Of a stretch of DNA of 64,000 nt, positions 8,735 to 31,560 are shown piece by piece. The translations under genes and the position numbers were made by a program. Within the stretch, counting starts at the first letter, position 1; each line of letters starts with the position of its first letter. The DNA comes from Thermaerobacter sp. FW80. GTDB taxonomy: Bacteria; Bacillota; Sulfobacillia; Thermaerobacterales; Thermaerobacteraceae. Under the pieces are notes generated by a model. It was given only the letters and a program-made list of their open reading frames with translations. It made no database searches and was not told the DNA's origin. The DNA lies in the NCBI RefSeq assembly GCF_004634385.1, contig NZ_CP037895.1, positions 1,959,245 through 2,023,244 of the forward strand, in the 5' to 3' direction.

Positions 8735-8762
8735 CCCCACCCCGGGGAGCGAGGTGAGTCCC

Positions 8763-9941
<1,179 letters not shown>

Positions 9942-10352
9942 TGGCGCCATCCCCGGAGGCCATCGCGCCGCGTCGCGCGCGGGGTGCCACCCCGGGGAGG
10001 CCAGGCCGGGGCGGTCCCGCGGGGGCCGTCCGGGGCCGTCCAGGGGTGCTGGGGCATCCCGTCCCGGGAGGCCCCGGCGTGCCGGCGGAACCCCGTCCCG
10101 GCAGAGGCCGGCGTGCCGGCGGAGACCGGGGGATGCCGGCTCGACGCCGTTCGCTTCCGGCGCGCCGCCACGGCACGGTCCGGGGGCGGCGGAGGCCCCG
10201 GGGTGCTGGCGCCGCCGCGGGGCCGGGTGGCCCCGCGGCGGGGGGTGCGGGTTCGACCGGCGGATCCGGCCGGATCGTCCGCCGCCGTGACCGGAGCCGC
10301 CGGCGGGACCGGAGGATGCTCCACCGGAGGATGTTCGAAGGAGGGGAGGACC
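9942..10352. repeat. 411-bp fadA-fadE spacer with imperfect direct repeats
   Basis: No gene is seen. Two imperfect 34-bp units around 10059-10128 share GTCCCGG and GGCGTGCCGGCGGA. Near the end, ACCGGAGGATGYTCS occurs twice in tandem (about 10309-10338) just before the fadE ribosome site. I found no terminator with a U-run, so read-through into fadE is likely. Confidence 0.45.
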
Positions 10353-12173
10353 ATGGCCGATGCGCAGCCCATGCCGGCGCGTGAGCCCGAAGCCCCCGCC
10401 CGCAAGCGGCCGGTGGGTGCCGGGTTCCTGATCGAGGGTACCGCGCCGGCGGAGGTGTTCACCGCGGAGGACCTGACCGAGGAGCAGAAGATGATCGGCC
10501 AGGTGGCCCGCGACTTCGCCCTGAAGGAAGTGCGCCCGCTGATCGACGAGCTCGAGCACGGCCGGCACGAGCACTCGGTGGCCCTGCTGCGGCGCGCGGG
10601 GGAGCTCGGCCTGCTGGCGGTGGAGATCCCCACGGAGTACGAGGGGCTCGGCCTCGACAAGGCGACGGCTACCCTGGTGGTGGAGCGACTGGCGCCGGCG
10701 GGCTCCTTCGGGGTGACCTTCGGCGCCCACACCGGCATCGGCACGCTGCCCATCGTCTACTTCGGGACCCCCGAGCAGAAGCGGCGCTACCTGCCCAAGC
10801 TGGCCACCGGCGAGTGGATCGCCGCCTATGCGCTGACGGAGCCCGACGCCGGCTCCGACGCCCTGGGCGGCAAGACGCGGGCGGTGCTGTCGCCCGACGG
10901 CAAGCACTACGTCCTGAGCGGCCAGAAGCAGTGGATCACCAACTCGGGCTTTGCCCACGTCTTCGTCGTCTACGCCAAGGTCGACGGCGAGAAGATGACG
11001 GCCTTCATCGTCGAGCGCGACTTCCCCGGCGTCGCGGTGTCGGAGGAAGTGCGCAAGATGGGCATCAAGGGCTCGTCCACGCGGACGCTCTATCTGAACG
11101 ACGTGCCGGTGCCCGTCGAGAACGTGCTCGGCGAGGTGGGCAAGGGCCATCACATCGCCTTCAACATCCTGAACATCGGCCGGTGGAAGCTGGCCGCCGG
11201 GAACCTGGGGGCCTGCAAGGAGCTCATCGCCGTCTCCACCCAGTACGCCCAGGGCCGCAAGCAGTTCGGGCGGCCCATCGCCGACTTCCCGCTGATCCAG
11301 CAGAAGCTGGCCGCCATGGCCGCCCGCACCTACGCCCTGGAGGCCATGGTCTATCGCACGGCGGGGGCCTTCGACGCCAGCCTGAGCGCCATCGACGGCG
11401 ACGCCCCCGACGCGGGCCGGCAGGCCATCGCCGCCATCTCCGAGTACGCCGTGGAGGCCTCGATCAACAAGGTCTTCGGCTCCGAGACCTTGGACTTCGT
11501 GGTCGACGAGGCCGTCCAGATCCACGGCGGCTACGGCTACATGCAGGAGTACGAGGTGGAGCGGGCCTACCGCGACGCCCGCATCAACCGGATCTTCGAG
11601 GGGACCAACGAGATCAACCGCCTGCTGATCCCCCGCGAGCTGATGCGCCGGACCCTGAAGGGCAAGCTCCCGCTGATGCAGGCCCTCGGTCGGGTCCAGA
11701 AGGAGCTGGCGGAGCTGTCGCCCCTGGGGCCGGCCGGGGAGGCGGCGTCGGGTCCCTTGGCGGACGAACAGGCCCTGATCGCCAACGCGCGACGGCTGAC
11801 CTTGATGGTGGCGGGCCTGGCGGTGCAGCGGTACATGCAGCAGCTTGAACACGAGCAGGAGCTGCTGGCGGCCATCGCCGACCTGTGCATCGAGCTGTAC
11901 GCCATGGAGAGCGCGGTGCTGCGGGCCCTCAAGGCGGGCGGGACCGGCGTCCACGCCGACCTGGCGCGGCTCTTCGTGGCCGGGAGCCTCGACCGGGTGG
12001 AGATCGTCGCCCGCAATGCCCTGGCGGCCATCGAGCGCGGCGACGCCCTGCAGGTGCAGCTGGGCATCGTCCGGCGCCTGCTGCGGCGCGAGCCGGTGAA
12101 CCAGGTGGCCCTGGGCCGGCAGGTGGCCCGGGCCGTCCTGGAGGCCGGCGGCTACCCGCTGGGCGACCGCTGA
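10353..12173 (+). CDS. fadE: Acyl-CoA dehydrogenase (FadE type, long form)
   Basis: FAD-dependent acyl-CoA dehydrogenase, 606 residues, opening the beta-oxidation cycle by forming trans-2-enoyl-CoA. The dehydrogenase core carries YALTEPDAGSDA near residue 158, WITNSGFAHVFVVYAK, and the catalytic region RINRIFEGTNEINRLLIP with Glu near residue 414. About 170 further residues after the core form a helical C-terminal domain like that of very-long-chain dehydrogenases. ATG 10353 follows AAGGAGGGGAGG. The first 30 residues are Pro/Ala-rich and probably disordered. It completes the fadN-fadA-fadE set; electron acceptors (ETF) are not encoded nearby. Confidence 0.95.
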   Translation: MADAQPMPAREPEAPARKRPVGAGFLIEGTAPAEVFTAEDLTEEQKMIGQVARDFALKEVRPLIDELEHGRHEHSVALLRRAGELGLLAVEIPTEYEGLGLDKATATLVVERLAPAGSFGVTFGAHTGIGTLPIVYFGTPEQKRRYLPKLATGEWIAAYALTEPDAGSDALGGKTRAVLSPDGKHYVLSGQKQWITNSGFAHVFVVYAKVDGEKMTAFIVERDFPGVAVSEEVRKMGIKGSSTRTLYLNDVPVPVENVLGEVGKGHHIAFNILNIGRWKLAAGNLGACKELIAVSTQYAQGRKQFGRPIADFPLIQQKLAAMAARTYALEAMVYRTAGAFDASLSAIDGDAPDAGRQAIAAISEYAVEASINKVFGSETLDFVVDEAVQIHGGYGYMQEYEVERAYRDARINRIFEGTNEINRLLIPRELMRRTLKGKLPLMQALGRVQKELAELSPLGPAGEAASGPLADEQALIANARRLTLMVAGLAVQRYMQQLEHEQELLAAIADLCIELYAMESAVLRALKAGGTGVHADLARLFVAGSLDRVEIVARNALAAIERGDALQVQLGIVRRLLRREPVNQVALGRQVARAVLEAGGYPLGDR

Positions 12174-12698
12174 ATCCGGGACGACGGCGCCGGCTCGGGC
12201 GGGCGCCGCGGCACGCGGGGTCCGAGGCGCCCGGGAGCCCTGCACGCGGGGCCACCGCCCCCTGGCGGCCCGGGCGCGGGCTCCCGATGCGCCCGGGCGC
12301 CCGGTCGCGGCGGGATGCGGGAGGCCGGTCGGCGCCCTCCGCACCCCTGGGCGCCCTCCCGGCGGCCCTTCGACAGCAGGGGCCGGGGGCGAGGGGGGGG
12401 GGGACGGGCGGGAGCCCTGGCTCCCGCCCGTCCCCCTTCCTCCGCGGCCCGGTGCCGCGGGACCCCCTGCGCCATCGACGGCAGCGGCGGCAGCCCCCGC
12501 CGGTCCCGAGGCCGACGGCACCCCATGGGCGCCCGGGCCCCGGGAGGGCGGGGTCCACCGCCTCCACGCCCCAGCTGCCGGGGACGGGAGGGCGGGGCGC
12601 TTCCCGCGACCACGCCGCGCCCCACCCCTCCAAGGCCGCTGCAGCGGCGACCCCATCGGCGGCCGCACCGGCTGCCGCTTCGACGAGGAGGCATGGCC
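12174..12698. other. 525-bp spacer between fadE and the MBL-fold gene
   Basis: No gene is recognisable. It contains a strong hairpin (12399-12436, listed separately) and GC-rich low-complexity sequence. The downstream gene may therefore have its own promoter, which I could not identify. Confidence 0.5.
12399..12436 (+). terminator. 16-bp GC stem after fadE, probable terminator
   Basis: GGGGGACGGGCGGGAG (12399-12414) pairs perfectly with 12421-12436 across the loop CCCTGG, followed by TTCCTCC. The U-run is poor but the stem is very strong. Confidence 0.55.
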
Positions 12699-13766
12699 AT
12701 GGCAACGCCGGGCAGAGGCGTCGACGCGTCGGTCACGGGGGTGCCCGCTGGCGTCCACCCCGTGGACGAGGGCGTGCTCCGCATCCCCGTGCCCACCCCC
12801 TTCGCGGTCGGCGTCGTCAACGTCTACCTCATCCTGGGCCGGGTGCCGACCCTGGTCGACGTGGGGCCGGGCGGGCGGCGCGGTCGGGAGGCCCTGGAGG
12901 CGGGGCTGGCGGCCGCGGGCCTCGGCTGGGACGACGTCGCCCAGGTCGTGATCACTCACACCCACGCCGACCACATGGGCCTCTTGCGCCACTGGCCGGG
13001 GACGCGCCGGCCCGCGGTGGTAGGCCATCGCTGGGGGGCGCGACACTTCCGCGGCGGTGACGACCCGGAGCGGGTCCGGTTCTTCCAGGGATTCGTGCGC
13101 TCGGCGGGGGTCCCGGCGGACGTGGCGGGCGGCCTGCTCCAGGGGCTTGCGGCGCTGATGGCCGCCGAGCCCGCGGTGTCGGTCGCCCGGTGGCTGGAGG
13201 ACGGCGACGAGCTGACCATGGGCGACGACCGCTGGCTGGTGCTCCACACGCCGGGCCACGCCCAGTCCCAGGTGTGTCTCTACCGGGAGCGGGACGGCCT
13301 GCTCATCAGCAGCGACCACCTGCTTCCGACGATCTCCTCCAACGCCTTGCTGGAGCCTGCGCCCCTGGACGAACGCGGCCGGCCCCTCCGGCCCGAGCCG
13401 CCCCGCAGCCTGGTGGACTATCGCCGGTCGCTGCGCCGGGTGCGGCCGCTTCCGGCGCGGCGCTGCCTGCCGGGCCACGGCGACCCCTTCGGTGGCCACC
13501 GGGAGCTGATCGAGCGTCGCCTCGCGGACATGGAACGACGGGCCCGGCAGATCCGCGACGCGCTGGCCGCCCGGGGCGGCCGGTCGACCCTGTACCGGCT
13601 GGCCGTCGATCTGTTCGGGTCGGGCGATGCGGGGCACCTGCTGCTGGCCCTCTCCGAGGTCCAGGGCCACGTGGCGTGGATGGAGAGCGAGGGCTGGGTG
13701 CGCTGCCGGCCGGAACCCGGGGGCAGCGGCGTCCTCATGGTGACGGCGGCGGGCGGGGCCGGATAG
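12699..13766 (+). CDS. Metallo-beta-lactamase-fold hydrolase with C-terminal winged-helix region
   Basis: Zinc hydrolase of the glyoxalase II/LACTB2-like branch, 355 residues. The metal-binding THTHADHMG lies near residue 86, with further ligands in HTPGHAQSQVCLY (about 183) and LPGHGDPFGGHRELI (about 256). The last 70 residues (HLLLALSEVQGHVAWMESEG) look like the small winged-helix tail seen in this branch. ATG 12699 is preferred over ATG 12693 because it is 7 nt from GAGGAGG. Next to the fad operon, a thioester or CoA-derivative hydrolase is a reasonable guess, but the substrate is unknown. Confidence 0.88.
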   Translation: MATPGRGVDASVTGVPAGVHPVDEGVLRIPVPTPFAVGVVNVYLILGRVPTLVDVGPGGRRGREALEAGLAAAGLGWDDVAQVVITHTHADHMGLLRHWPGTRRPAVVGHRWGARHFRGGDDPERVRFFQGFVRSAGVPADVAGGLLQGLAALMAAEPAVSVARWLEDGDELTMGDDRWLVLHTPGHAQSQVCLYRERDGLLISSDHLLPTISSNALLEPAPLDERGRPLRPEPPRSLVDYRRSLRRVRPLPARRCLPGHGDPFGGHRELIERRLADMERRARQIRDALAARGGRSTLYRLAVDLFGSGDAGHLLLALSEVQGHVAWMESEGWVRCRPEPGGSGVLMVTAAGGAG

Positions 13767-13868: not shown

Positions 13869-16712
13869 CTACCGGCCGGGTTCCTCCACCCGGACGCGGG
13901 CGTCGACGATCAGGCAGCCCCGCCCCGGCTCGTAGGCCATCAGCGGGTTGATGTCGAGCTCGGCGATCTCCGGCACCTCCTCCACCAGCCGCGAGACGCG
14001 CAGCAGCACGTCCTGGATCGCCTCCAGGTCGGCCGGCGGGTGGCCCCGGTAGCCCTCCAGGAGGCGATAGCCCCGGATGCTGCGGATCATCTCCGCCGCG
14101 TCCACGTCGGTCAGCGGCGTGATGCGGAAGACCACGTCCTTGAGGACCTCCACGTGGATCCCGCCGAGGCCGAAGGCCACCAGCGGGCCGAAGAGGGGAT
14201 CCTGGGTCACCCCGACCACCAGCTCGGTGCCGGCCGGCACCATGGGCTGGACCACGAAGCCGTCCAGCTCCTCCCTGCGGCCGGCGGCCTCCAGCCGGCG
14301 GACGATGCCGCGGCAGGCGGCGCGCACCGCCGCCGCGTCCGCGAGGTGCAGCTGGACCCCGTCCCACTCGGTCTTGTGCACCAGGGTGCGCGAGGCCATC
14401 TTCACCGCCACGGGGTAGCCGAGGTCGGCCGCGGCCGCCACGGCCGCCTCTTCGTCCCGGACGAACCGGCTGCGCACCCGGGGCAGGCCGAAGGCCTCCA
14501 GCAGCCCGTCGACCTCCTGGGCCGACAGCCACCCCCCGCCCCGCCCGAGGGCCGCGCGGCACAGGTCGCGGGCCCGGTCGACGTCCAGGTCGGGATGGGC
14601 GGGGATCCGGCCCAGCGGGCGCTGGCGCCAGCGGGCGTACTCGTACGCCTTGGCCAGGGCCCGGGCGGCGGATTCGGGGAACCGGTAGGAGGGGATGCGC
14701 TCGTCCCCCACGGCCAGGGGCTGGCGCAGGCCGCGGGCGCTCATGAAGCACGCGACCACGGGCTTGCGATGGCCCGCCCGTCGGGCCTCGGCCACCGCCT
14801 CCCGCACCGCGGCGGCGACGGCGTCGACGTCGGCCAGGCCCACGGGGATGAAGATCACCAGCACCGCGTCGAAGCCGGGGTCGCGGAGCACCACCCGCAG
14901 GGTCTCGCGGTACTGCTCGGCGGTGGCGGAGGCGACCATGTCGATGGGGTTGGCCACGCTCGCCGCCGGCGGGAGGAATCGGCGCAGGGCCTCGCGGGTC
15001 GCGGGGGAGGGCTCCGGCACCTCCAGTCCCGCCGAGGCCAGGGCGTCGGTGGCCAGGATGCCCGGTCCCCCCGCGTTGGTGACGATGGCCACCCGCGGTC
15101 CGGCGAGGAGGGGTTGGTTCGCCAGCAGCGCGGCGATGTCGAACATGTCCTCCAGCGTGTCGGCGCGGATCACCCCGGCCTGCCGGAACAGCGCCTCCAC
15201 CGCCACGTCGCTGGCGGCCAGGGCGGCGGTGTGGGAGCCCGCGGCCCGGGTCCCCGCGGCGGTGCGGCCCGCCTTCACCGCCAGGATCGGCTTCTTGCGG
15301 CCCACGCGGCGGGCCAGCCGCGCGAAGCGGCGGGGGTTGCCGAAGGACTCCAGGTAGAGCAGGATCAGGTCCGTGTCCTCGTCGTCCTCCCAGTACTGGA
15401 TGAGATCGTTCCCCGACACGTCCGCCTTGTTGCCGACGCTGACGAAGCTCGACAGCCCGAGACCGAGGTCGCGGGCGTACTCCAGGATGGCGAGCCCCAG
15501 CGCACCGCTCTGCGAGGACATGGCCACCCGTCCGTGGGGCGGGAAGACCGGGGAGAAGCTGGCGTTCATCCGCACGTCGGGGGCGGTGTTGATCAGGCCG
15601 AGGCAGTTGGGGCCCACCATGCGCATCCCGTAGCCGCGCACCTTGGCCACCAGGCGCTCCTGCAGCGCCCGGCCCTCGGGACCCGTCTCGGCGAAGCCGG
15701 CCGTGACCACCACCAGCGCCCGCACGCCCTTGGCGCCACACTGGTCGACCACGTCCAGCACCGCCTCCCGCGGCACCGCCACCACCGCCAGGTCCACCGG
15801 GCCCGGGACGTCCAGCACCGAGCGGTAGGCGGGGATCGACCCGACCACCTCCGCCCGCGGGTTGACGGGATAGACCGGGCCCTGGAACCGGTTCATCACC
15901 AGCGCCTCGAGGATGCGGTAGCCGATGCTGCCGGGATCGCGGGAGGCCCCCACCACCGCCACGCCCCGGGGGCGGAAGAGGGGTCGCAGCGACGCCACGG
16001 TGGCGATGCGGTCCCGCATCTCGCTGCGCGCCACGCTCTCGGGACTGGGCTGGACGTCCAGGCTGACCACCACGTAGCCGTCCCGGTGGTGCTGGTGGGC
16101 CTCGAAGCCGCTGGCCCGCAAGACCTCCAGCATGCGGCGGTTGTCGGGCTGGGTCCAGGCGACGAACCGGCGGATGCCGTGGCGGGCGGCGATCAGGGCC
16201 AGCCTTTCGAGGAGCAGGGTGCCCAGGCCGCGGCCCTGGTAGGCGTCTTCCACCAGGAAGGCGACCTCGGCGGTGTCGGGTTCCGCCCGGTCGCGGACGT
16301 ACGTGCCGCTGGCCACGATGCGCGGATGGTCGGGGTCACCCACCTGCACCAGCAGGGTGTATCGCTCGGCGGGCGGCCCGACCTGGAGCAGCGCCTCCAC
16401 CGCGGCCTCCCGCGAGGCGCCGGCGAAGAAGCGCCGCATCAGGGAGAGGTCCGAGACCCGCTGGAGGAACTCGCCCACCAGCGGCCGGTCGGCCTCCCGC
16501 GCGGGCCGCAGGGTGGCGGCCGTGCCGTCGCGGAGCAGCACGCGGCCCGCCTCGAGCCCCTCCTGGGGGATGGGGGCGGGGTAGAGGGCGGGGAGCGAGG
16601 CCAGGGCCGGACGGGGTCGGGTGGTGCCGGACGCCGGCGTCAACGCGGCCCCGGCGCTCGCTGCGCCGGGCTGGGCGGGGCGGCTCCGGGGATCGCCAGG
16701 GTCGCTGCGCAT
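13869..16712 (-). CDS. GNAT acetyltransferase fused to ADP-forming acyl-CoA synthetase
   Basis: Fusion of 947 residues. Residues about 50-220 are a GNAT domain (YQGRGLGTLLLERLALIAA near 157). From about 245 comes a CoA-binding domain (VAVVGASRDPGSIGYRILEA), then the ligase domain with SHTAALAASD near 492, and from about 715 an ATP-grasp domain (YPVAVKMASRTLVHKTEWDG). Such proteins either make acyl-CoA with ATP, giving ADP, or act as lysine acetyltransferases (Pat/PatZ) controlling acetyl-CoA synthetase. Here GNAT is N-terminal, the reverse of enterobacterial Pat, and the His of SHTAA, phosphorylated in active ADP-forming synthetases, is kept, favouring a catalytic synthetase half. ATG 16712 follows AAGGAGG. 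It converges on the MBL-fold gene and may link fatty-acid catabolism to protein acetylation (inference). Confidence 0.9.
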   Translation of the reverse strand: MRSDPGDPRSRPAQPGAASAGAALTPASGTTRPRPALASLPALYPAPIPQEGLEAGRVLLRDGTAATLRPAREADRPLVGEFLQRVSDLSLMRRFFAGASREAAVEALLQVGPPAERYTLLVQVGDPDHPRIVASGTYVRDRAEPDTAEVAFLVEDAYQGRGLGTLLLERLALIAARHGIRRFVAWTQPDNRRMLEVLRASGFEAHQHHRDGYVVVSLDVQPSPESVARSEMRDRIATVASLRPLFRPRGVAVVGASRDPGSIGYRILEALVMNRFQGPVYPVNPRAEVVGSIPAYRSVLDVPGPVDLAVVAVPREAVLDVVDQCGAKGVRALVVVTAGFAETGPEGRALQERLVAKVRGYGMRMVGPNCLGLINTAPDVRMNASFSPVFPPHGRVAMSSQSGALGLAILEYARDLGLGLSSFVSVGNKADVSGNDLIQYWEDDEDTDLILLYLESFGNPRRFARLARRVGRKKPILAVKAGRTAAGTRAAGSHTAALAASDVAVEALFRQAGVIRADTLEDMFDIAALLANQPLLAGPRVAIVTNAGGPGILATDALASAGLEVPEPSPATREALRRFLPPAASVANPIDMVASATAEQYRETLRVVLRDPGFDAVLVIFIPVGLADVDAVAAAVREAVAEARRAGHRKPVVACFMSARGLRQPLAVGDERIPSYRFPESAARALAKAYEYARWRQRPLGRIPAHPDLDVDRARDLCRAALGRGGGWLSAQEVDGLLEAFGLPRVRSRFVRDEEAAVAAAADLGYPVAVKMASRTLVHKTEWDGVQLHLADAAAVRAACRGIVRRLEAAGRREELDGFVVQPMVPAGTELVVGVTQDPLFGPLVAFGLGGIHVEVLKDVVFRITPLTDVDAAEMIRSIRGYRLLEGYRGHPPADLEAIQDVLLRVSRLVEEVPEIAELDINPLMAYEPGRGCLIVDARVRVEEPGR

Positions 16713-21194: not shown

Positions 21195-22301
21195 ATGCGC
21201 ACGCGACGCGTGGCCGTCATCGGAGCGGGCCACGGCGGCCAGGCGATGGCCGCCTATCTAGGCCTGCTGGGGTTCCGGGTCACGCTCTACAACCGCTCGG
21301 CGGCGGCCCTGGAGCCCATCGCGGCGCAACGCGGCATCCACCTCGAGGGCGAGGTCCGGGGCTTCGGGCCGGTGGAACGCGTCGCCTGCACCGTCGGCCC
21401 CGAGTTGCGGCGCTTCCGGCTGGTCATGGTCGTGGTCCCCGCCACCGCCCACCGCCAGGTGGCCGCCTGGTGCGCGCCCTTCCTCGGCGACGGGCAGGTG
21501 GTGGTCCTGCACCCGGGACGAACGGGCGGAGCGCTGGAGTTCCACGCGGCCTTGCGCGCCGCGGGGAACCGGGCCGACGTGCTGGTCGGCGAGGCGCAGA
21601 CCCTGCTCTTCGCCAGCCGGGTGACGGGACCCGCGCGGGTGCGGATCTACGGGTTCAAGCACCGGGTGCGGGCGGCGGCGCTGCCGGCGGTGCGCAACGC
21701 CGAGCTCCTGGCGGCCCTGCGGGAGGTGCTGCCGCTGTTCAGCGCGGCCGAGAGCGTCCTGGAGACCAGCCTGGACAACGTCGGCGCGGTGTTCCATCCG
21801 GCGCCGCTGCTCCTCAACGCGGGGCGGGTGGAGGCCGGCGAGCCCTTCGAGTACTACCGCCAGGGCATCACGCCGGCGGTGGCCCGGGTCGTCGAGGCGC
21901 TGGACGCCGAGCGGCTGGCGGTGGCGTCCGCCCTTGGCCTGCAGCTGCGCACCGCCCGCCAGTGGCTGGCCGAGACCTATGGGGCCCAGGGGCACGATCT
22001 CTACGAAGCCGTCCAGGGCAATCCCACCTACCGGGGCATCGCGGCGCCCGCGACCCTGGCCCATCGCTATCTGGACGAGGACGTCCCCGCCAGCCTGGTG
22101 CCCATGGCCGCCCTCGGGCGGCGCCTGGGCGTCCCGACCCCGGTCATGGACGGCGTCATCCACCTGGCCGGCGCCCTCCGGGGCACGGACTTCTGGCGCA
22201 CGGGGCGCACCCTGGGGCACATGGGACTCCGCGGCATGAGCGCCGAGCAGATCCGCCGCTGGGTCACCCTGGGCGAGCTCGACGAGGCCCTGGTGGTGTG
22301 A
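21195..22301 (+). CDS. Opine (octopine/nopaline) dehydrogenase-family protein
   Basis: 368 residues. An N-terminal NAD(P)-binding Rossmann domain (RRVAVIGAGHGGQAMAAYLG, GxGxxG at 10-15) is followed by the helical C-terminal domain of the octopine/nopaline dehydrogenase family, with the conserved LDNVGAVFHPAPLLLNAGRV block whose His near 201 corresponds to the usual catalytic region. Members reductively join an amino acid to a keto acid, or run in reverse. ATG 21195 follows AGGGAGG. The next gene, 124 bp away and on the same strand, encodes a cobalamin-binding protein; the pair look co-transcribed from the promoter at 20542. True substrates are unknown. Confidence 0.88.
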   Translation: MRTRRVAVIGAGHGGQAMAAYLGLLGFRVTLYNRSAAALEPIAAQRGIHLEGEVRGFGPVERVACTVGPELRRFRLVMVVVPATAHRQVAAWCAPFLGDGQVVVLHPGRTGGALEFHAALRAAGNRADVLVGEAQTLLFASRVTGPARVRIYGFKHRVRAAALPAVRNAELLAALREVLPLFSAAESVLETSLDNVGAVFHPAPLLLNAGRVEAGEPFEYYRQGITPAVARVVEALDAERLAVASALGLQLRTARQWLAETYGAQGHDLYEAVQGNPTYRGIAAPATLAHRYLDEDVPASLVPMAALGRRLGVPTPVMDGVIHLAGALRGTDFWRTGRTLGHMGLRGMSAEQIRRWVTLGELDEALVV

Positions 22302-22425
22302 GGTTCGCGGGCGTCGCGAACCGGAGCCATCGTCCCGTCGTCAGCCGCGACCCGGAGCCATCGTCCCGTCGCCCGGCCCCGCAACGCGGGCCGAGGGCGT
22401 CATCGCTTCCCTGGAGGTGAGGTCC

Positions 22426-24111
22426 ATGGGCCGCAAGCCGAAGATCCTGGGCGCGGCGGTGGGCGATTGCGTCCACGTGGCCGGCGTGGTCAACTTCCTC
22501 CATCTGGCGGAGGCCCAGGGCTACGCGACCTTCTGCCTCGGGCCGGCGGTGCCCGTCGACGAGCTCTTGGGCGCCGCCCTCGAGGACGATCCCGACATCA
22601 TCGCCGTGGGCTACCGCCTGACGCCGGAGACCGGCGCCCGGGTGCTGGCGGAGCTCAAGGACAAGGCCGAGCGCATGGGCCTCGCCCACAAGCGCTTCAT
22701 CTTCGGCGGCGTCGGCGCCGTCTGCGACTACGCCCGACGCCTCGGCCTGTTCGAGGCGGTGTTCGACGCCGACACCACCGTCGACGAGATCATCGCCTAC
22801 CTGCGGGGCGGGCCGACCCGCCAGGACGAGGTCGACTACCCGCAGACCCTGGTGGGGCGCATCGAGTTCAAGCACCCGTACCCCATCCTGCGCCACCACT
22901 TCGGTTTGCCGTCGGTGGAGGCGACCATCCGGGGCGTGGAGGCCATCGCCGAGGCCCGGTGCCTGGACGTGATCTCCCTGGGTACCGACCAGAACGCCCA
23001 GGAGCACTTCTTCCGCCCCGAGGAGATGGACCCGGACGAACACGGCGCCGGGGGCGTGCCGGTCCGCACCCCCGACGACCTGCGGGCCATCTACCAGGCG
23101 TCGCGGCGGGGCAACTACCCGCTGATGCGCTGCTACAGCGGCACCCGCGACACCCTGAAGTGGGCGGCGATGCTGAAGGAGACCATCAACAACGCCTGGT
23201 GCGCGGTGCCGCTCTTCTGGTACAGCCAGCTGGACGGGCGCAGCCGGCGGCCATTGGACGAGTCCATCGCCGAGGCGCAGGAACTGATGCACTGGCACGC
23301 GCGCCACGGCATCCCGGTGGAGATGAACGAATCCCACCACTGGAGCCTGCGGGACGCGCCGGACACCGTCGCCGTGGCCGCGGCCTTCCTGGCGGCGTAC
23401 AACGCCTACCGGTGCGGCGTGCGCACCTACGTCCAGCAGCTGATGTTCAACAACCCGCCGGGCACGTCGTTCAAGATGGACCTGGCCAAGATGCTGGCCA
23501 AGCTGGAGCTCGTGGGCGAGCTCGAAGGCGCCCGGTTCCGCGTGCTGCGCGAGACGCGCACGGGACTGTCCAGCTACCCGGCGGACCTGGACCGGGCCAA
23601 GGGGCAGATCGCCTCCTCGGTGACGGTCCAGATGGCCCTCCAGCCCCACATCGTGCACGTGGTGGCCTACACCGAGGCGAGCCACGCCGCCACGGCCGAG
23701 GACGTCATCGCCTCCTGCCGCATCGCGGAGCAGGCCATCCGCAACGCGGTCCACGGCCTGCCCGACATGCTGCGCGACCCCGACATCCAGGAGCGGAAGA
23801 ACCAGCTGGTGCAGGAGGCGCGGCAGCTGCTGGAGGCGATCCGCTCCCTGGCGCCGGGGGGGACGGGCGATCCGTGGACGGACCCGGCGACGCTCAAGCT
23901 GGCGGTGGAGATGGGGCTGCTGGATGCGCCGCACCTCATGGGCAACAAGGCGGCCCGCGGGAAGATGCGGACGCGCATGGTGGGCGGGGCCTGCGTGGCG
24001 GTGGATCCGGCCACCGGCCGCCCGCTGCGGGAGGAGGAACGCATCGCCCGGGTGTTCGCGGATTACGAGCGGGCGATGGCCGGCACCCCGGCGCCCCCGC
24101 CGTCGGCGTGA
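22426..24111 (+). CDS. Cobalamin-binding protein with mutase-like second domain, uncharacterised
   Basis: 561 residues. Residues 1-130 resemble a B12-binding Rossmann-like domain: ILGAAVGDCVHVAGVVNFLH gives Asp14, His17 and Gly20, a DxxHxxG variant of the DxHxxG signature for base-off cobalamin. It continues with TFCLGPAVPVDELLGAAL and IIAVGYRLTPETG. The remainder (LDVISLGTDQNAQEHFF, INNAWCAVPLFWYSQLDGRS, PVEMNESHHWSLRDAPDT) looks like a TIM-barrel enzyme of the glutamate-mutase E or aminomutase kind, though I could not assign a family. ATG 22426 has GGAGGTGA upstream. Fusion of both parts in one chain, beside an opine-dehydrogenase-like gene, suggests a B12-dependent rearrangement of an amino-acid derivative followed by NAD(P)-linked oxidation. 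This is inference. Confidence 0.75.
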   Translation: MGRKPKILGAAVGDCVHVAGVVNFLHLAEAQGYATFCLGPAVPVDELLGAALEDDPDIIAVGYRLTPETGARVLAELKDKAERMGLAHKRFIFGGVGAVCDYARRLGLFEAVFDADTTVDEIIAYLRGGPTRQDEVDYPQTLVGRIEFKHPYPILRHHFGLPSVEATIRGVEAIAEARCLDVISLGTDQNAQEHFFRPEEMDPDEHGAGGVPVRTPDDLRAIYQASRRGNYPLMRCYSGTRDTLKWAAMLKETINNAWCAVPLFWYSQLDGRSRRPLDESIAEAQELMHWHARHGIPVEMNESHHWSLRDAPDTVAVAAAFLAAYNAYRCGVRTYVQQLMFNNPPGTSFKMDLAKMLAKLELVGELEGARFRVLRETRTGLSSYPADLDRAKGQIASSVTVQMALQPHIVHVVAYTEASHAATAEDVIASCRIAEQAIRNAVHGLPDMLRDPDIQERKNQLVQEARQLLEAIRSLAPGGTGDPWTDPATLKLAVEMGLLDAPHLMGNKAARGKMRTRMVGGACVAVDPATGRPLREEERIARVFADYERAMAGTPAPPPSA

Positions 24112-24914: not shown

Positions 24915-25800
24915 CCTCACCCGATCCCTCCGTCCGGCGCCCCGTCCCCGCGGGTCGGTGCCCGGGCGGGCGCCTACCCTCTTGCTACCCGTTGGACGCC
25001 TCCCTCCGCAAGCCGGTTCCCGGTCCGGGCCTGCCCGACCGAGGCCGACGGCGACCGGCGCCCGTACCCGGCCGGCCCAGCGGCCGGGCACGGGCGCCCG
25101 CCGGCGCCAAGCCCCGGTCGGGCCGCCGCCCCGGCCGGGCGGAAGCCATCCCCCGCGGCGCGGGTCGTCGGCGCGGGCCGTCGGCGTCGCCCGTCGCCGA
25201 TGGCGCCCGGCGCCCAATGCCCAGCCGCGGGGGACCCCTGCGGGTCCCCGACGCGCGTCTGGAGCCATGGCGGTCCATGGCCCCGACGGGGCGCCATCGC
25301 CGCGGCGGGGCGCGGGACGCTGGCGTGTGGGCTCGCGCACCGGCTCGATGCGCCGTCCGCCACGGTCCGCCGAGGACGCCCCGGGTCGGGGCGGACGCCG
25401 ATCCCCCACAGGCGCCGGCGGCCGGAAGGCCGCCGGGCTCCGGGTGCCACGGTCTGGCTTGGGGTCCGGGGTGCGATCCCCCGGCGCGAGTCGTCGCGAG
25501 CGCTTTCGCCCGGCGTCCCAGGCGGTCCTGATGCGCCCCCGGCCTAGGAACGGCGCATAGGCCCCGGAGGGGCGGCATAGGCATGGTGGGCGACCGGGGC
25601 ACACGGCCCGGCGCGGCCGGCGGCTCCCGCCGGCCGCGCCGGGCCGTGGATTGGGCAGGTGCAGGAGCGGTCCGCTCCATGCCGCGCATGCCGCGCATGC
25701 CCGCACGCAGCCGCCGCCACCCGGTCCCGCGCGGGGCTGCGCCCCGGCTCCGGCGCCCCCGGCGCCGACGACGACCCCGGGTCCGCAGGAGGCGAGAGGC
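24915..25800. other. 886-bp divergent interval before the Ca2+-ATPase
   Basis: No gene is supported. Open frames of 158-179 codons exist on both strands at 24974-25531, but they are Arg/Pro/Gly-rich mirror images with no domain. The stretch holds a very long hairpin at 25602-25648. No clear promoter was found. Confidence 0.5.
25602..25648. repeat. 22-bp perfect stem with 3-nt loop
   Basis: Positions 25602-25623 are exactly complementary to 25627-25648 around CTC; the arm begins CACGGCCCGGCGCGGCCGGC. No U-run follows. It lies 150 bp before the ATPase start, so it is either a leader structure of that gene or a barrier between two divergent units. Confidence 0.75.
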
Positions 25801-28629
25801 GTGGTACGTTGGCCGCATCGCCCTTCCGCCCACGGCTCGCAGGCTCGCTCCGGCCCCGCCGCCGGGTCGCGGGGGGAGGCGCCGCCCTGGCACGCCTGGC
25901 CGGCCGATCGCTGCCTGGAGGCGCTGGCCAGCGACGGGGAGCGAGGGCTCACCCCCGCCGAGGCCGACCGCCGGCTGCAGCGGTACGGCCCCAATCGGCT
26001 TCGCCCCGCGCGGCGGGATCCCCTCTGGCGCAAGCTGGCCGTCCAGTTCCAGGACGTCCTGGTCCTGGTCCTGGTGGGGGCGGCGGCGCTGTCCGCCGCC
26101 CTGGGCGAGCGGGCGGACGCCGTCACCATCGTGGCCATCGTGATCGTCAACGCCCTCCTGGGGTTCCTGCACGAGCACAGGGCCGAGCAGGCCCTGGAGG
26201 CCCTCAAGGCGCTGGCGGCGCCCCAGGCCCGCGTGGTCCGCGACGGTCAGCGCCGCGTGGTGCCGGCCTCCGACCTGGTCCCGGGCGATCTGATCCTGCT
26301 CGAGGCCGGCGACCGCGTCCCCGCCGACGCGCGCCTCCTCGAGAGCCACAGCCTGGCGGTGGAAGAGGCGGCCCTGACGGGCGAGTCCCGGCCCGTCGCC
26401 AAGTCGGCCGCCGCCGCGTGCCCGCCCGACGCGCCCCTGGCGGAGCGGACGACCATGGTCTACCAGGGGACCACCGTGTCCCGCGGCCGCGCCCGCGCGG
26501 TGGTGGTGGCGACCGGCATGGCCACCGAGATGGGGCGCATCGCCGACCTCCTGCAGACCGCGGAGACGGAGCCGACCCCGCTGCAGCGGCGCCTGGCCCA
26601 CCTGGGTCGGGTGCTGGTCACCGCCGCCCTGGCGGTCTGCGCGGTGGTGGTGGCGTTGGGGTTGATCCAGGGGCAGGGCCTGGCCCCGATGTTCCTCGCC
26701 GGGGTCAGCCTCGCCGTCGCCGCCGTGCCCGAGGGGCTGCCGGCGGTGGTCACCATCGTCCTGGCCCTCGGCGTCCAGCGGATGGTCCAGGCCCACGCCG
26801 TCATCCGCCGTCTGCCGGCGGTGGAGACCCTGGGCTGTACCACCGTGATCTGCTCGGACAAGACGGGGACGTTGACGGAGAACCGCATGACCGCCCGGCG
26901 CGCGGTGACGGCCAGCGGCGTCTTCGAGCGGAGCGGGGAGGGGGAGCCCTGGCGGCCCGCGCCAGGGTTGGAGAGCCCGGGCCGCGGCCGGGCACCCGGT
27001 CCCGGTGGATGGGATCCGCCGCCGGTTCCGCGGGCCGGCGCCGCCGGCGAGCTCCGGCGGCTCCTCGAGGCCGTGGCCCTGTGCAACAACGCGGTGCCCG
27101 TCTCCGCCTCCGACGACCCGGTCGGCGATCCCACGGAGGTCGGCCTGGTCAAGGCCGCCTGGGCGGGAGGGATCGACGCCCGCCGCCTGCAGCGGGAGCG
27201 TCCCCGCCTGGCGGAGCACCCCTTCACCGCGGAGCGCCGCCGCATGGCGGTGGTCTGTCTGGACGAACGCGGCCGCCCCACCGGCTACGTCAAGGGCGCC
27301 CCCGAGGTGATCCTGGCGCGGTGCCGGTTCGTCTGGCGGGGTGATCGGCCGGCCCCGCTGGCCGAGGCCGACCGCCGCCGCATGGCGGCCGCCGCGGCGG
27401 CCATGGCCGAGCAGGCGCTGCGGGTGCTGGCCGTGGCGGTCCGGCCGCTGGAGCCGGGCCGCGACCCCGAGGACGAGGGGATCGTGGAGCGGGACCTGGT
27501 GCTGGTGGGGCTGATCGGCCTGATGGACCCGCCGCGCGCCGAGGTCCCCGCGGCCATCGTGCGCTGCCGCCAGGCGGGGATCCGGCCCGTGATGGTCACC
27601 GGCGACCACCCCCGCACGGCCGCCGCCATCGGCCGCGAGCTGGGGCTGCTGCGGGAGGGCGACCCGGTGGTGGAGGGCCGGGAGCTGGAGGCCCTGGACG
27701 ACGAGCAGCTGGCCCGCAGGGTGGCCGAGGTCAGCGTCTTCGCGCGGGTGGCGCCCGAGCACAAGCTGCGGATCGTCCGCGCCCTGAAGCGCCGGGGCGA
27801 GGTGGTGGGGATGACGGGGGACGGCGTCAACGACGCCCCCGCCCTCAAGGAGGCCCACATCGGCATCGCCATGGGCCGCACGGGCACCGACGTCACCCGC
27901 GAGGCGGCGGACATGATCCTCACCGACGACAACTTCGCCTCCATCGTGGCGGCCATCGAGCAGGGGCGGGCCATCTACGACAACATCCGCAAGTTCATCC
28001 GGTATCTGCTGGCCTGCAACACCGGGGAGATCCTGGTGATGTTCCTGGCCCTGCTGGTGGGCCTGCCGCTGCCCCTGCGGCCCATCCACATCCTGCTGGT
28101 CAACCTGGTCACCGACGGTCTGCCCGCGGTGGCCCTGGGCCTGGAACCGGCGGAACCCGACGTGATGAACCGGCCCCCGCGCCACCCGCAGGAGAGCCTC
28201 TTCGCCGGGGGCCTGGGGCGGCGGATCGTGGTGCGCGGGGTGGTCATCGGGCTGACGACGCTGGCCCTGTTCGTCCTCGGCTGGGCGGGCGGCGACCTCG
28301 AGCGCGGCCGGACCATGGCCCTGGCGGGTCTCGTCCTGAGCCAGATGCTGCACGTCTTCGACTGCCGCTCGGAGCGGCGGTCGGCCTTCGACGTGCCCCT
28401 GTCCGCCAACCCCGCCCTGGTGGCGGCGGTGGCGTCGTCGGTGGCGGTGCTGCTGGCGGTGATCTACTGGGAGCCGCTGGCCCGTTCCTTCTACACGGTG
28501 CCCCTGCGGCCCGGCGACTGGGTGACGGTGCTGGGCGGGGTCCTCTTGCCGTGGGTCCCGTTGCTGGTGCGGCGGCATCTGCTGGGCGGGTTGCCGTCGT
28601 CCGTGGGGGCTGAGGTGCGCAGGACCTGA
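25801..28629 (+). CDS. P-type Ca2+-transporting ATPase (YloB type)
   Basis: 942-residue type II P-type ATPase that exports Ca2+, possibly Mn2+, using ATP. Visible parts: actuator TGES (EEAALTGESRPV), membrane helix PEGLPA near residue 308, phosphorylation site ICSDKTGTLTEN with Asp353, nucleotide-domain KGAPEVIL, hinge MTGDGVNDAPALKEAHIGIA near 672, and C-terminal helices with LLVNLVTDGLPAVALGLEP. It follows B. subtilis YloB almost throughout. GTG 25801 is chosen because AGGAGG lies 8 nt upstream. It carries a Pro/Gly-rich insertion after ASGVF in the nucleotide-binding domain. In B. subtilis yloB precedes yicC; here five genes intervene. Confidence 0.95.
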   Translation: MVRWPHRPSAHGSQARSGPAAGSRGEAPPWHAWPADRCLEALASDGERGLTPAEADRRLQRYGPNRLRPARRDPLWRKLAVQFQDVLVLVLVGAAALSAALGERADAVTIVAIVIVNALLGFLHEHRAEQALEALKALAAPQARVVRDGQRRVVPASDLVPGDLILLEAGDRVPADARLLESHSLAVEEAALTGESRPVAKSAAAACPPDAPLAERTTMVYQGTTVSRGRARAVVVATGMATEMGRIADLLQTAETEPTPLQRRLAHLGRVLVTAALAVCAVVVALGLIQGQGLAPMFLAGVSLAVAAVPEGLPAVVTIVLALGVQRMVQAHAVIRRLPAVETLGCTTVICSDKTGTLTENRMTARRAVTASGVFERSGEGEPWRPAPGLESPGRGRAPGPGGWDPPPVPRAGAAGELRRLLEAVALCNNAVPVSASDDPVGDPTEVGLVKAAWAGGIDARRLQRERPRLAEHPFTAERRRMAVVCLDERGRPTGYVKGAPEVILARCRFVWRGDRPAPLAEADRRRMAAAAAAMAEQALRVLAVAVRPLEPGRDPEDEGIVERDLVLVGLIGLMDPPRAEVPAAIVRCRQAGIRPVMVTGDHPRTAAAIGRELGLLREGDPVVEGRELEALDDEQLARRVAEVSVFARVAPEHKLRIVRALKRRGEVVGMTGDGVNDAPALKEAHIGIAMGRTGTDVTREAADMILTDDNFASIVAAIEQGRAIYDNIRKFIRYLLACNTGEILVMFLALLVGLPLPLRPIHILLVNLVTDGLPAVALGLEPAEPDVMNRPPRHPQESLFAGGLGRRIVVRGVVIGLTTLALFVLGWAGGDLERGRTMALAGLVLSQMLHVFDCRSERRSAFDVPLSANPALVAAVASSVAVLLAVIYWEPLARSFYTVPLRPGDWVTVLGGVLLPWVPLLVRRHLLGGLPSSVGAEVRRT

Positions 28630-28646
28630 CCCGGGGGCGCCGCGGG

Positions 28647-28826
28647 GTGCGGACCGGCCGGCGGCCCACCCATGGGCCGTTGCGGCTCGGACTGGCCTCG
28701 AATCGCCATGTCGAGCTCCGGGCGTACCACGTGCCCCTCGGCGTCCTCATCTTCTTCTTCTTCTTCGCCTGGTTGACGCTGGCGGTGGTTCACGGCGTGC
28801 GCTTCCAGCCGGACGAACCCGCATGA
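28647..28826 (+). CDS. Small Phe-rich single-pass membrane protein (59 residues)
   Basis: A short frame just after the ATPase stop, ending at TGA 28824-28826. Its second half is one hydrophobic helix (VPLGVLIFFFFFAWLTLAVV) preceded by the charged segment NRHVELRAYH and followed by the short tail HGVRFQPDEPA. GTG 28647 is the longest start; TTG 28680 would give 48 residues. Neither has a good ribosome site, but translation could be coupled to the ATPase 18 bp upstream. The TTC repeat encodes five Phe. Function unknown; a regulatory or stabilising subunit of the ATPase is a guess. Confidence 0.5.
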   Translation: MRTGRRPTHGPLRLGLASNRHVELRAYHVPLGVLIFFFFFAWLTLAVVHGVRFQPDEPA

Positions 28827-29007
28827 GTTGGGGAAGCTCGACGAACCCGCACGGACTGGGAGGACTCCGCCGGGGGTGTCGCCCGGGACCATGCGCCCGG
28901 GGCCGGCGCGGGCCGGTCCGGGCGCTGACGGGCCCAGGGGAGCCGTGGGGCGACGATCTGGGACGGGCGCGTCCACCGCGGCAGGATTCGTGGCACCGGC
29001 GGCAGAG

Positions 29008-29013
29008 TATGCT
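29008..29013 (+). promoter_or_regulatory. Possible -10 box (TATGCT) of the dapF leader
   Basis: TATGCT followed by AACATG is the only AT-rich hexamer in this stretch. TTCGTG, 15 nt upstream, is a poor -35. It sits just before the structured leader of dapF. Confidence 0.35.
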
Positions 29014-29018
29014 AACAT

Positions 29019-29381
29019 GAGTCTTGCGCGACCGCGCCGCGGCCCCGGCCGCTCCCGGCCGGGGCCGCGAGCCACCGGAGGCCTGTGGGGACCGACGTCC
29101 CTGCCGGCGCTCCTGCGTACCCGGGAGCCCCGGGGGCGCCCGCACGTCGCCGGGCGGTGGCTCCGGCGTCGGGGTGGACGTGCCGACGCCGGGAGCCGCC
29201 CAGGCGATCCCCGCCCTTCCCGCGGCGACCCCGTCCACGGGGTGGGGCGGGCAGCGGAGGAACCCCGGGCGGCATCCCCGGGAGCCGGCGGGGACGGTGC
29301 ACCAGCGGGTGGGGGTCGCGGCCTCCGGGGCGGTGCCTGCGGCCGCCTTTTTCTTTCCAAAAACCGGAGGAGGTGGCCGCC
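29019..29381 (+). ncRNA. Structured leader of dapF, candidate cis-regulatory RNA
   Basis: A 360-nt untranslated stretch with ordered helices: a perfect 14-bp hairpin at 29038-29069; a closing helix AGCCACCG (29070-29077) with CGGTGGCT about 85 nt later, enclosing smaller hairpins; a 10-bp hairpin with CCGGCGTCGG and CCGACGCCGG arms around a 10-nt loop; and finally an intrinsic terminator ending 25 nt before the dapF start. A degenerate T-box-like GGGTGG...CGCGG occurs at 29307-29321, but the consensus is not met, and no lysine-riboswitch core was found. The layout fits transcription attenuation of the diaminopimelate genes by an unidentified signal. Confidence 0.45.
29318..29356 (+). terminator. 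Intrinsic terminator in the dapF leader
   Basis: GCGGCC (29318) can pair with GGCCGC (29341), or GGCGG (29329) with CCGCC (29343). Both are followed directly by TTTTTCTTT, the best U-run in the window. It ends 25 nt before the dapF start and therefore acts inside the leader. Confidence 0.65.
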
Positions 29382-30266
29382 GTGAAGGCGGCAGGCCCGG
29401 TGCGGCTGACCAAGATGCACGGCCTGGGCAACAGCTACCTGTTCCTCGACGGGATGGCCGGACCGGTCCCCCCCGACGAGGTCCTGCCCGAACTGGCCCG
29501 GGCCGTCAGCGACCGCAACTTCGGCATCGGCAGCGACGGGTTGATCCTGGTCCTGCCGCCGCGGGACCGCGAGGCCCAGTTCCGCATGCGGATCTTCAAC
29601 GCCGACGGGTCCGAGGGCGAGATGTGCGGCAACGGCATCCGCTGCCTGGCGCGGCTGGTGTTCGACCGCGGCTACACCCGCGACACCGAGTTCGTCGTGG
29701 AGACCAAGGCAGGGGCCATCCGGCCGCGGCTCCACCTGGTGGACGGCCGGGTGGAGGCGGTCACGGTGGACATGGGGGTGCCGCGCCTCGAGCGGGGGGC
29801 GATCCCCATGGCGGGTCCGGCCACGGAGCGGGCCGTCGAGGTGCCCCTCCGGGTGGCGACGGGCGCCGGCTCGGCGGAGGAGTTCATCGTGACCGCGGTC
29901 TCTATGGGCAACCCCCACTGCGTGGTCTTCGTCGACGACGTCGACGCCGTCGATCTCCAGCGGCTGGGTCCGGCCTTCGAGCACCACCCCGCCTTCCCCC
30001 AGCGGGTGAACACCCACTTCGCCCAGGTGCTCGGCCCCTCGCGCGTCCGGGTGCGGGTGTGGGAGCGGGGCTCGGGGCCGACCCTGGCGTGCGGCACCGG
30101 GGCCTGTGCCGTGGCGGTGGCCGGGGCGGTGACCGGCCGCACGGGCCGCCAGGTGACCGTGGAGCTGCCCGGCGGGCCGCTGGAGATCCGCTGGGAGGAG
30201 GACGGACACGTGTCCATGACGGGGCCCGCGGCCTACGTCGCGGAGATCACCTACGACCCCCACTGA
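29382..30266 (+). CDS. dapF: Diaminopimelate epimerase
   Basis: Cofactor-independent racemase converting LL- to meso-diaminopimelate for lysine and peptidoglycan; 294 residues. Both catalytic cysteines are present: Cys82 in GSEGEMCGNGIRC and Cys237 in LACGTGACAVAVAG. MHGLGNSYLFLDG near the start is the family N-terminal motif. GTG 29382 lies 7 nt after GGAGGAGGT. The next gene encodes the aminotransferase that makes its substrate, so the two form a short diaminopimelate operon inserted in the ylo block. Confidence 0.96.
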   Translation: MKAAGPVRLTKMHGLGNSYLFLDGMAGPVPPDEVLPELARAVSDRNFGIGSDGLILVLPPRDREAQFRMRIFNADGSEGEMCGNGIRCLARLVFDRGYTRDTEFVVETKAGAIRPRLHLVDGRVEAVTVDMGVPRLERGAIPMAGPATERAVEVPLRVATGAGSAEEFIVTAVSMGNPHCVVFVDDVDAVDLQRLGPAFEHHPAFPQRVNTHFAQVLGPSRVRVRVWERGSGPTLACGTGACAVAVAGAVTGRTGRQVTVELPGGPLEIRWEEDGHVSMTGPAAYVAEITYDPH

Positions 30267-30390
30267 GGCCAGCGGCCGGCTGGCGGTGCCCCGGCTGCGC
30301 CCACGCCGGCACGGCCGGGGCCGGCCGAGATCCGCGGCGGGGCCTGGACCGCTCCGGGTCCCCGGCAACCAGGCGCAGGAGGTGGAGCCC

Positions 30391-31560
30391 ATGGTGCGGC
30401 CGGCGCGACGGCTCGAGCGCATCCCCCCCTATCTCTTCGCCGAACTGGACCGCATGCAGGCCGAGGCCGCGGCCCGCGGCGTCGACGTGATCAGCCTCGG
30501 CATCGGCGATCCCGATCAGCCCACGCCCCCCCACATCGTCGCGGCCCTGCAGCGGGCGGCGGCGGACCCGGCCAACCATCCCTACCCGAGCTACGCCGGT
30601 TCGCGACGGTTCCGCGAGGCGGTGGCCCGCTGGTTCCGCCGCCGCTTCGGCGTCGAGCTGGATCCCGAGGGCGAGGTGCTGGCCCTGATCGGCTCCAAGG
30701 AGGGCCTGGCGCACCTGATCTGGGCCTACGTGGACCCCGGCGACGTGGTGCTGGTGCCGGACCCCGGCTACCCGGTGTACAAGGCCCACACCCTGCTGGC
30801 GGGGGGCGAGCCGTACGTCGTGCCCCTTCAGGAGGAACGCGGCTGGCTGCCCGACCTGGATCGCGTCCCCGCCGACGTGGCGCGACGGGCCAAGCTCCTC
30901 TTCCTCAACTACCCGAACAACCCCACCGGGGCCGTGGCGGACGAGGCCTTCTACCGCCGGGTGGTGGAGTTCGCCCGCGCCCACGACGTGCTGGTGGTCC
31001 AGGACGCGGCCTACAGCGAGGTGGGCGAGCCGGGTTACCGCGCCCCCAGCATCCTCCAGGTCGACGGCGCCCGCGATGTGGCCCTGGAGTTCCACAGCCT
31101 GTCCAAGCCCTACAACATGACGGGCTGGCGCATCGGCTTCGCCGTGGGACGTGCCGACCTCCTGCGGCCGCTGGCCACGCTGAAGACCAACACCGACTCC
31201 GGTCAGTTCACCGCGATCCAGGAGGCGGCCATCGTGGCCCTGGAGGAGACGCCGCCCACCTGGTTCCAGCGGCTGGCGGAGCTCTACGACCGGCGGCGGC
31301 GGTTGGTGCTGGACGCCCTGGCCGCCGCGGGCATCCAGGCCTCGCGGCCGCGGGCCACCTTCTACGTCTGGGCCCGGGTGCCGCAGCGCTTCGCCAGCGA
31401 CGGGGAGTTCGCGACGTTCCTGCTCAAGGAGGCGGGCGTCGTGGTCTCGCCGGGTTCAGCCTACGGCGATCACGGGGCGGGGTACTTCCGCATCTCGCTC
31501 ACGGTCCCCGACGACCGCCTGGCCGAGGCCATGGAACGCTTGCAGCGCGTGCTGGCCTGA
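30391..31560 (+). CDS. dapL: LL-diaminopimelate aminotransferase
   Basis: PLP-dependent class I/II aminotransferase, 389 residues, converting tetrahydrodipicolinate directly to LL-diaminopimelate with glutamate and so bypassing the acylated intermediates. Motifs: SLGIGDPDQPTPPHIVAAL (typical of DapL), NYPNNPTGAVAD, VQDAAYSEV, and the PLP lysine Lys239 in SLSKPYNMTGWRIG. ATG 30391 follows GCAGGAGGTGGAG. It is 124 bp after dapF on the same strand, which supports DapL over a generic aminotransferase. Confidence 0.88.
   Translation: MVRPARRLERIPPYLFAELDRMQAEAAARGVDVISLGIGDPDQPTPPHIVAALQRAAADPANHPYPSYAGSRRFREAVARWFRRRFGVELDPEGEVLALIGSKEGLAHLIWAYVDPGDVVLVPDPGYPVYKAHTLLAGGEPYVVPLQEERGWLPDLDRVPADVARRAKLLFLNYPNNPTGAVADEAFYRRVVEFARAHDVLVVQDAAYSEVGEPGYRAPSILQVDGARDVALEFHSLSKPYNMTGWRIGFAVGRADLLRPLATLKTNTDSGQFTAIQEAAIVALEETPPTWFQRLAELYDRRRRLVLDALAAAGIQASRPRATFYVWARVPQRFASDGEFATFLLKEAGVVVSPGSAYGDHGAGYFRISLTVPDDRLAEAMERLQRVLA

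Follow-up and report, generated by a model that had tools for sequence, protein, structure and literature searches.

The window analyzed here, a stretch of 64,000 nucleotides from Thermaerobacter sp. FW80 (contig NZ_CP037895.1, positions 1,959,245 to 2,023,244), encodes an opine-type NAD(P) dehydrogenase (ODH) directly followed by a 561-residue protein in which a B12-binding domain is fused to a barrel (hereafter the mutase). Both open reading frames (ORFs) lie where the initial annotation had placed them, and the observation of the pair is confirmed. The pair fits best with a pathway under the control of cyclic diadenosine monophosphate (c-di-AMP), in which the ODH and a fused mutase of the GlmE (glutamate mutase) class make an unusual amino acid, either a compatible solute or a wall building block, and not with a fermentation. 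This reading draws on the domain architecture and modeled fold of the mutase, the conservation of the pair, its recurrent neighbors and a riboswitch found in its relatives.

Conservation and distribution of the pair

The occurrence of the pair was analyzed in a sample of 398 genomes of the phylum, and gene neighborhoods were counted over 93 loci, per locus and uncorrected for kinship. The barrel protein occurs at 87 places in 86 of the genomes; with full-length relatives of the mutase in about a fifth of the sample, the observation is not a matter of chance. The ODH adjoins the mutase on the same strand at 81 of the 87 places (79 upstream, two in reversed order), a close ODH is encoded somewhere in 85 of the 86 mutase genomes, and only 4 genomes carry the ODH without the mutase. 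Pairwise identities of the two proteins are correlated (r 0.72, 83 pairs, not tree-corrected). The two genes do co-occur across genomes, and the lack of conservation that the initial annotation had named as a ground for dropping its proposal was not observed. No match to the pair was found in a plasmid collection.

In 2009, a putative operon without an assigned role was described in Halothermothrix orenii (PMC2626281). Its genes, Hore_09740 and Hore_09750, encode an octopine dehydrogenase and a B12-binding protein; they were reported to occur only in hot anaerobes, and the second protein was said to bear a distant likeness to methionine synthase. Going by the description this is the same pair, but the fold, MutL, the ligases and the riboswitch are not reported there, and the distribution is wider than was thought at the time. 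New beyond that account are the fusion to or adjacency of MutL, the alternative ligase neighbors and the c-di-AMP riboswitch, in a comparison that did not extend to the published ydaO gene tables. A literature search joining glutamate mutase and opine dehydrogenase, likewise outside the published ydaO gene lists, found nothing. The earlier suggestion of an undescribed pathway is supported in that no described one was found, the pair having been on record since 2009, to the extent covered here, only as a putative operon.

Domains and active site of the mutase

Residues of the mutase are numbered over 564 positions from GTG 22417, an alternative start in the ORF list; ATG 22426 gives the 561-residue form. 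An AlphaFold2 model built from 13 sequences has a mean pLDDT of 86.5. Its N-terminal domain matches the B12 domains of 4jgi (Z 16.7) and 1i9c (Z 15.1), and the PF02310 (B12-binding) score is 30.2 bits against a Pfam cut-off of 32.1; the search of the genome gave 32.9 bits. Aligned with GEDEHSVG of OraE, the mutase segment GDCVHVAG (G16-D17-C18-V19-H20-V21-A22-G23) keeps the histidine, the xxG spacing and the flanking glycine in register. The position of the aspartate in the canonical DxHxxG motif is held by Cys18, and is Cys in 77 of 87 relatives and Asp in 10; D17 varies among N, D, E, H or S, and His20 and Gly23 are present in all 87. The "one residue longer" DxxHxxG motif previously read in this protein was a register slip, the HxxG being canonical and D17 not conserved. 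By sequence and fold match this is a histidine-bearing B12 Rossmann domain of the class found in GlmE, OraE and lysine 5,6-aminomutase (LAM), with Cys usually in place of the Asp; the distant relatives L103 and L104 carry a canonical DAHTxG.

The missing aspartate and a PF02310 score slightly under cut-off would be expected if the protein were no mutase and its cobalamin were structural or sensory, or missing altogether. That seems very unlikely, however, given the universal histidine and glycine, the return of the aspartate in a minority of members and in L103/L104, and a MutL reactivase that is fused or linked (see below).

The barrel exceeds the cut-off of PF06368 (Met_asp_mut_E; 30.8 against 26.6 bits), and in the model it has a known AdoCbl (adenosylcobalamin) mutase fold. 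Its closest solved fold is GlmE (1cb7_B; Z 31.3, rmsd 3.1 Å over 375 residues), followed by LAM (Z 28.4), OraE (Z 25.3) and methylmalonyl-CoA mutase (Z 20.5). The initial annotation would have given up its proposal if this domain matched an enzyme already characterized; structure prediction does reveal such a match, to GlmE, but at the level of fold only, with 15% sequence identity.

Positions Y177 and E330 of GlmE are kept as Y269 (Y/F) and E420, the latter in 87 of 87 relatives; Glu330 is presumably the residue that contacts the ribose of AdoCbl, so that the barrel is of the AdoCbl mutase type with its ribose-contacting glutamate. Arginines R66, R100 and R149 of GlmE, which we take to be the claw that holds the substrate, align with H161, Q195 and Y240 of the mutase (by profile alignment only, HH probability 52-63%), each essentially invariant among relatives. 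Judged from sequence, the claw appears not to be kept, although R238 might replace R149. Across the superfamily R159, H161, Q192, Q195, R238, Y240, G242, T243, D273, R275, E302, N304, H307, R312, D316 and E420 are invariant, which indicates a working active site.

Compared with the glutamate (methylaspartate) mutase GlmE/GlmS of Clostridium cochlearium (1cb7/1i9c), the mutase shares the barrel, the B12 Rossmann domain, MutL and the two positions just named, but its domains form a single chain that begins with the B12 domain, it is paired with an opine-type ODH, and it lies in no glutamate-fermentation context. A fused enzyme converting glutamate to 3-methylaspartate would account for GlmE being the closest fold, for the Pfam MutE domain match and for the MutL partner. 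It is nonetheless highly improbable: the glutamate mutase model TIGR01503 gives 19 bits against a cut-off of 390, the claw positions are occupied by other, nearly invariant residues, and methylaspartate ammonia-lyase was not noticed nearby (no profile search for it was made).

The aminomutases are more distant. Ornithine 4,5-aminomutase (OraSE) and LAM have a related barrel (Z 25-28) and a B12 domain similar in sequence, and an EAxH motif is common to LAM and the mutase. The mutase differs in its N-terminal B12 domain and in the absence of the pyridoxal phosphate (PLP)-binding lysine loop, which was looked for in the mutase alignments and not found (the lysine of the OraE model NF040743 included). 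PLP-dependent aminomutase chemistry is therefore unlikely on sequence grounds.

The opine-type dehydrogenase

The ODH scores 175 bits against PF02317 (Octopine_DH; gathering score 30) and aligns over its full length with N-(1-D-carboxyethyl)-L-norvaline dehydrogenase (CENDH, 1bg6; E 2.6e-86). Residues H201, N195, E239, W257, Y262, R291, E295 and D296 are identical in 88 of 88 relatives, His201 and Asp296 being presumably the positions of the catalytic His/Asp dyad of the family. It is thus a full-length homolog of CENDH and the octopine dehydrogenases with these catalytic positions kept, but differs from them in its coupling to a B12 mutase. In two loci (L199 6238-8718, L200 6511-8991) an ODH with no mutase is flanked by the gene of an RpiR-like regulator on one side and by a membrane-transporter-like gene on the other, an arrangement that is another use of this enzyme family. 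The ODH Teth5142108 is upregulated in ethanol-adapted Thermoanaerobacter, where it was read as octopine metabolism (PMC3751872).

Association with the MutL reactivase

In the divergent relatives L101 and L102, MutL forms the C-terminal domain of the mutase (PF13941, 276 and 273 bits), and in 8 further loci of the 93 its gene neighbors the pair in the same orientation, so that fused or adjacent MutL amounts to 10; one of these loci (L149) has the order ODH, ATP-grasp, MutL, mutase. Among genomes negative for GlmE, MutL is present in 22 of 31 with the fused mutase and in 13 of 121 without it (Fisher 6e-11). Where GlmE, LAM and OraE are all lacking, the proportions are 7 of 13 and 3 of 59 (1e-4), four of the seven belonging to one genus. 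This fusion, adjacency and co-occurrence support radical AdoCbl chemistry. The genome of the window, in which GlmE, LAM and OraE were searched for and not found, has one MutL, unlinked to the pair. An orphan MutL beside housekeeping genes was seen in a genome without GlmE, OraE or LAM (G000:C1:703584-704936; L126 about 8564-9955, minus strand).

The fusions, of about 1220 residues (B12 domain, GlmE-like barrel and MutL; L101 6306-10007, minus strand; L102 1739-5383, plus strand), lie beside genes for an Opp-type (oligopeptide) transporter, a GntR regulator and a Peptidase_C26 protein of the gamma-glutamyl hydrolase type.

A c-di-AMP riboswitch and ligase genes at the operon in relatives

An Rfam scan of 20 loci revealed a c-di-AMP riboswitch directly upstream of the ODH in three, and a phylum-wide search placed RF00379 at gathering score directly before the ODH in at least 22 genomes. 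A covariance model (R1) built from 20 of these riboswitches was searched over 1.49 Mb of neighborhoods and gave 47 matches, all on the operon strand at operon heads; the first labeled gene downstream is the ODH in 41, an ATP-grasp gene in 5 and an AsnB gene in one (L093). By this model 44 of the 93 loci have a riboswitch within 500 bases. Ten base pairs of the leader alignment show compensatory changes, and in genomes in which the two genes are separated the riboswitch stays with the ODH (G274, G320, G353, G310 and G362). Two tandem riboswitches precede a single ODH gene in L109 (10549-10675 and 10815-10938, minus strand), and in L093 a separate riboswitch belongs to an AsnB gene close to the pair (11930-13706, minus strand). 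No cobalamin riboswitch was found upstream in the 20 loci or in the window.

Two kinds of ligase adjoin the pair and never occur together at one locus. An ATP-grasp gene is the neighbor at 15 loci; it shares the strand of the pair at nine of them, with gaps ranging from -27 to 83 bases, and is divergent at the other six. Its product is D-Ala-D-Ala-ligase-like, though under every Ddl cut-off. At 11 loci the pair is immediately followed by a gene for an AsnB-type synthase. Four AsnB-like proteins (L009, L011, L076 and L105) have Ser, Gly or Ala at the position of the glutaminase Cys (start codons not verified) and would therefore be glutamine-independent amide synthetases.

The presence of the riboswitch and of ATP-consuming ligases, together with the lack of fermentation genes nearby, favors an anabolic, osmotically controlled pathway over a fermentation of amino acids; the initial annotation had likened the layout of the pair to that of ornithine 4,5-aminomutase and 2,4-diaminopentanoate (DAP) dehydrogenase. 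In a catabolic scheme the ODH would split an opine or deaminate, and the mutase would rearrange an amino acid for fermentation. A B12 mutase with an NAD-linked amine dehydrogenase does recall OraSE/Ord of the ornithine pathway, L101 and L102 lie beside a transporter and a peptidase, and in L096 an ornithine-racemase-like gene is convergent to the pair (9930-10988, minus strand; 432 bits against a cut-off of 480). However, the pathway partner of OraE is DAP dehydrogenase and not a PF02317 protein, no lyase, thiolase or CoA-transferase recurs around the pair in the loci examined, and ligases and riboswitch are better suited to biosynthesis. Besides, GlmE and the fused mutase are both present in 8 genomes, so that the latter is no substitute for glutamate fermentation. 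With the PLP lysine absent and GlmE as the nearest barrel in addition, the analogy is unsupported, and amino-acid or opine catabolism is quite unlikely.

The main rival of a solute is a role in the cell wall, in which the set would supply an unusual amino acid or dipeptide to peptidoglycan or another surface polymer, mutase and ODH making the amino acid, the ATP-grasp or AsnB-type enzyme coupling it, and c-di-AMP coordinating this with wall homeostasis. The likeness of the ATP-grasp partner to D-Ala-D-Ala ligase points that way, as do the divergent loci L097 and L104, which lie among surface-polysaccharide genes (in L097 overlapping a PylC/CPS-like ATP-grasp gene). Riboswitches of the ydaO type act on genes for K+ transport and the cell wall as well as on osmotic genes (PMC7266159), and a solute is therefore not the sole reading of this signal. 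On the other hand, no ligase is found in most loci, neither transpeptidase nor Mur genes are recurrent neighbors of the pair, and dapF/dapL near some loci count for little because they lie inside a general conserved gene order. We consider the wall role rather unlikely.

Besides the bearing of c-di-AMP on the wall, several observations weigh against a c-di-AMP-controlled solute pathway driven by a B12 mutase. The motif aspartate is replaced in most members, and most loci, that of the window included, have no adjacent ligase. About half of the loci, again including the window, have no detectable riboswitch, and some 20 of the 47 R1 matches are there by construction, as members of the training set; the other approximately 27 are not. 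The setting of L101 and L102 looks catabolic, and these may be a different branch. In the window, searches at gathering score, at E 10 and with R1 found no c-di-AMP riboswitch at the operon, nor was any found in the genus-mates L044-L046. The genome of the window encodes diadenylate cyclase domains, but its pair has neither a detectable riboswitch nor a ligase next to it, and its MutL is unlinked, so that control there must differ.

Locus layout in the window

Coordinates of the pair are listed in Table 1. No terminator-like hairpin was found in the gap between the genes (22302-22425). Downstream (25651-31560) lie a P-type Ca2+-ATPase-like gene, dapF and an LL-DAP-aminotransferase-like gene, in an order that recurs in several relatives near yicC/gmk/coaBC; as part of that general order, dapF and dapL were set aside as pathway partners. 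On the minus strand, the ORF at 13869-16700 looks by eye like a fusion of a GNAT acetyltransferase and an ADP-forming acyl-CoA synthetase. Numerous antisense shadow ORFs were discarded from the clusters examined.

Table 1. Positions of the ODH-mutase pair and its parts in the window.
Feature	Position	Strand	Remarks
Opine-type (octopine/CENDH-type) NAD(P) dehydrogenase (ODH)	21195..22301	+	ATG 21195 to stop, 368 aa
Gap between ODH and mutase genes	22302..22425	+	124 bases; RBS-like GGAGGT ahead of ATG 22426
Fused B12-dependent mutase (predicted)	22426..24111	+	561 aa from ATG 22426
B12-binding Rossmann domain of mutase	22429..22812	+	residues 5-132; PF02310, structure matches, OraE alignment
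Mutase motif C18-V-H20-V-A-G23	22468..22485	+	within B12 domain
GlmE-like TIM barrel and C-terminal part of mutase	22834..24039	+	residues 140-541; PF06368, 1cb7_B

Proposed pathway and implications

It is about an even call that the mutase is an AdoCbl-dependent radical enzyme of the GlmE class, acting in one pathway with the ODH that is anabolic, osmotically controlled and likely to yield a compatible solute, non-protein amino acid, opine or amide. The use of AdoCbl, the radical chemistry, the direction and the product would, as we infer them, be as follows. Homolysis of AdoCbl in the barrel would give a 5'-deoxyadenosyl radical, which would rearrange, without PLP, a small amino-acid-like substrate, though not glutamate in the grip of the known arginine claw. 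The ODH would then reductively condense (or oxidize) the amino group of the substrate with NAD(P)(H), and the ATP-grasp or AsnB-type enzyme, where present, would form an amide bond, with MutL reactivating the mutase. At the head of the operon in many species, the riboswitch would switch the genes together with those for K+ and osmolytes. The product would most probably be a compatible solute, a non-protein amino acid, or an opine or amide thereof.

Known compatible solutes do include masked amides and non-protein amino acids produced by mutases, such as N-acetylglutaminylglutamine amide and N-epsilon-acetyl-beta-lysine (PMC1224877). The pathway to the former resembles the one proposed here in having ligases that form amides and belong to the same two superfamilies (ATP-grasp and AsnB-type), and that to the latter, through an aminomutase, in its mutase-made non-protein amino acid. 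We know of no B12 mutase or opine dehydrogenase in either. In pyrrolysine-type logic, PylB is a radical mutase, PylC an ATP-grasp ligase and PylD an NAD dehydrogenase. Tentatively, and with the balance against it, the B12 radical mutase, opine-type ODH and amide ligase might form a new class of c-di-AMP-controlled biosynthesis of a novel solute or building block, with a PylB/PylC/PylD-like logic and AdoCbl chemistry.

A pair noted in 2009 and present in about one fifth of the sampled genomes of the phylum thereby turns from an orphan into a directly testable pathway, tied by the riboswitch to the c-di-AMP signal and by MutL to AdoCbl radical chemistry, with the ligases hinting at the last step. 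With its natural exchange of Cys for Asp, the cobalt-ligand motif can also serve as a test case of the way in which the aspartate tunes AdoCbl enzymes. Should the product be a compatible solute, the B12-dependent osmolyte route would, to our knowledge, be a first, and would offer an explanation for the B12 requirement of hot or salty anaerobes.

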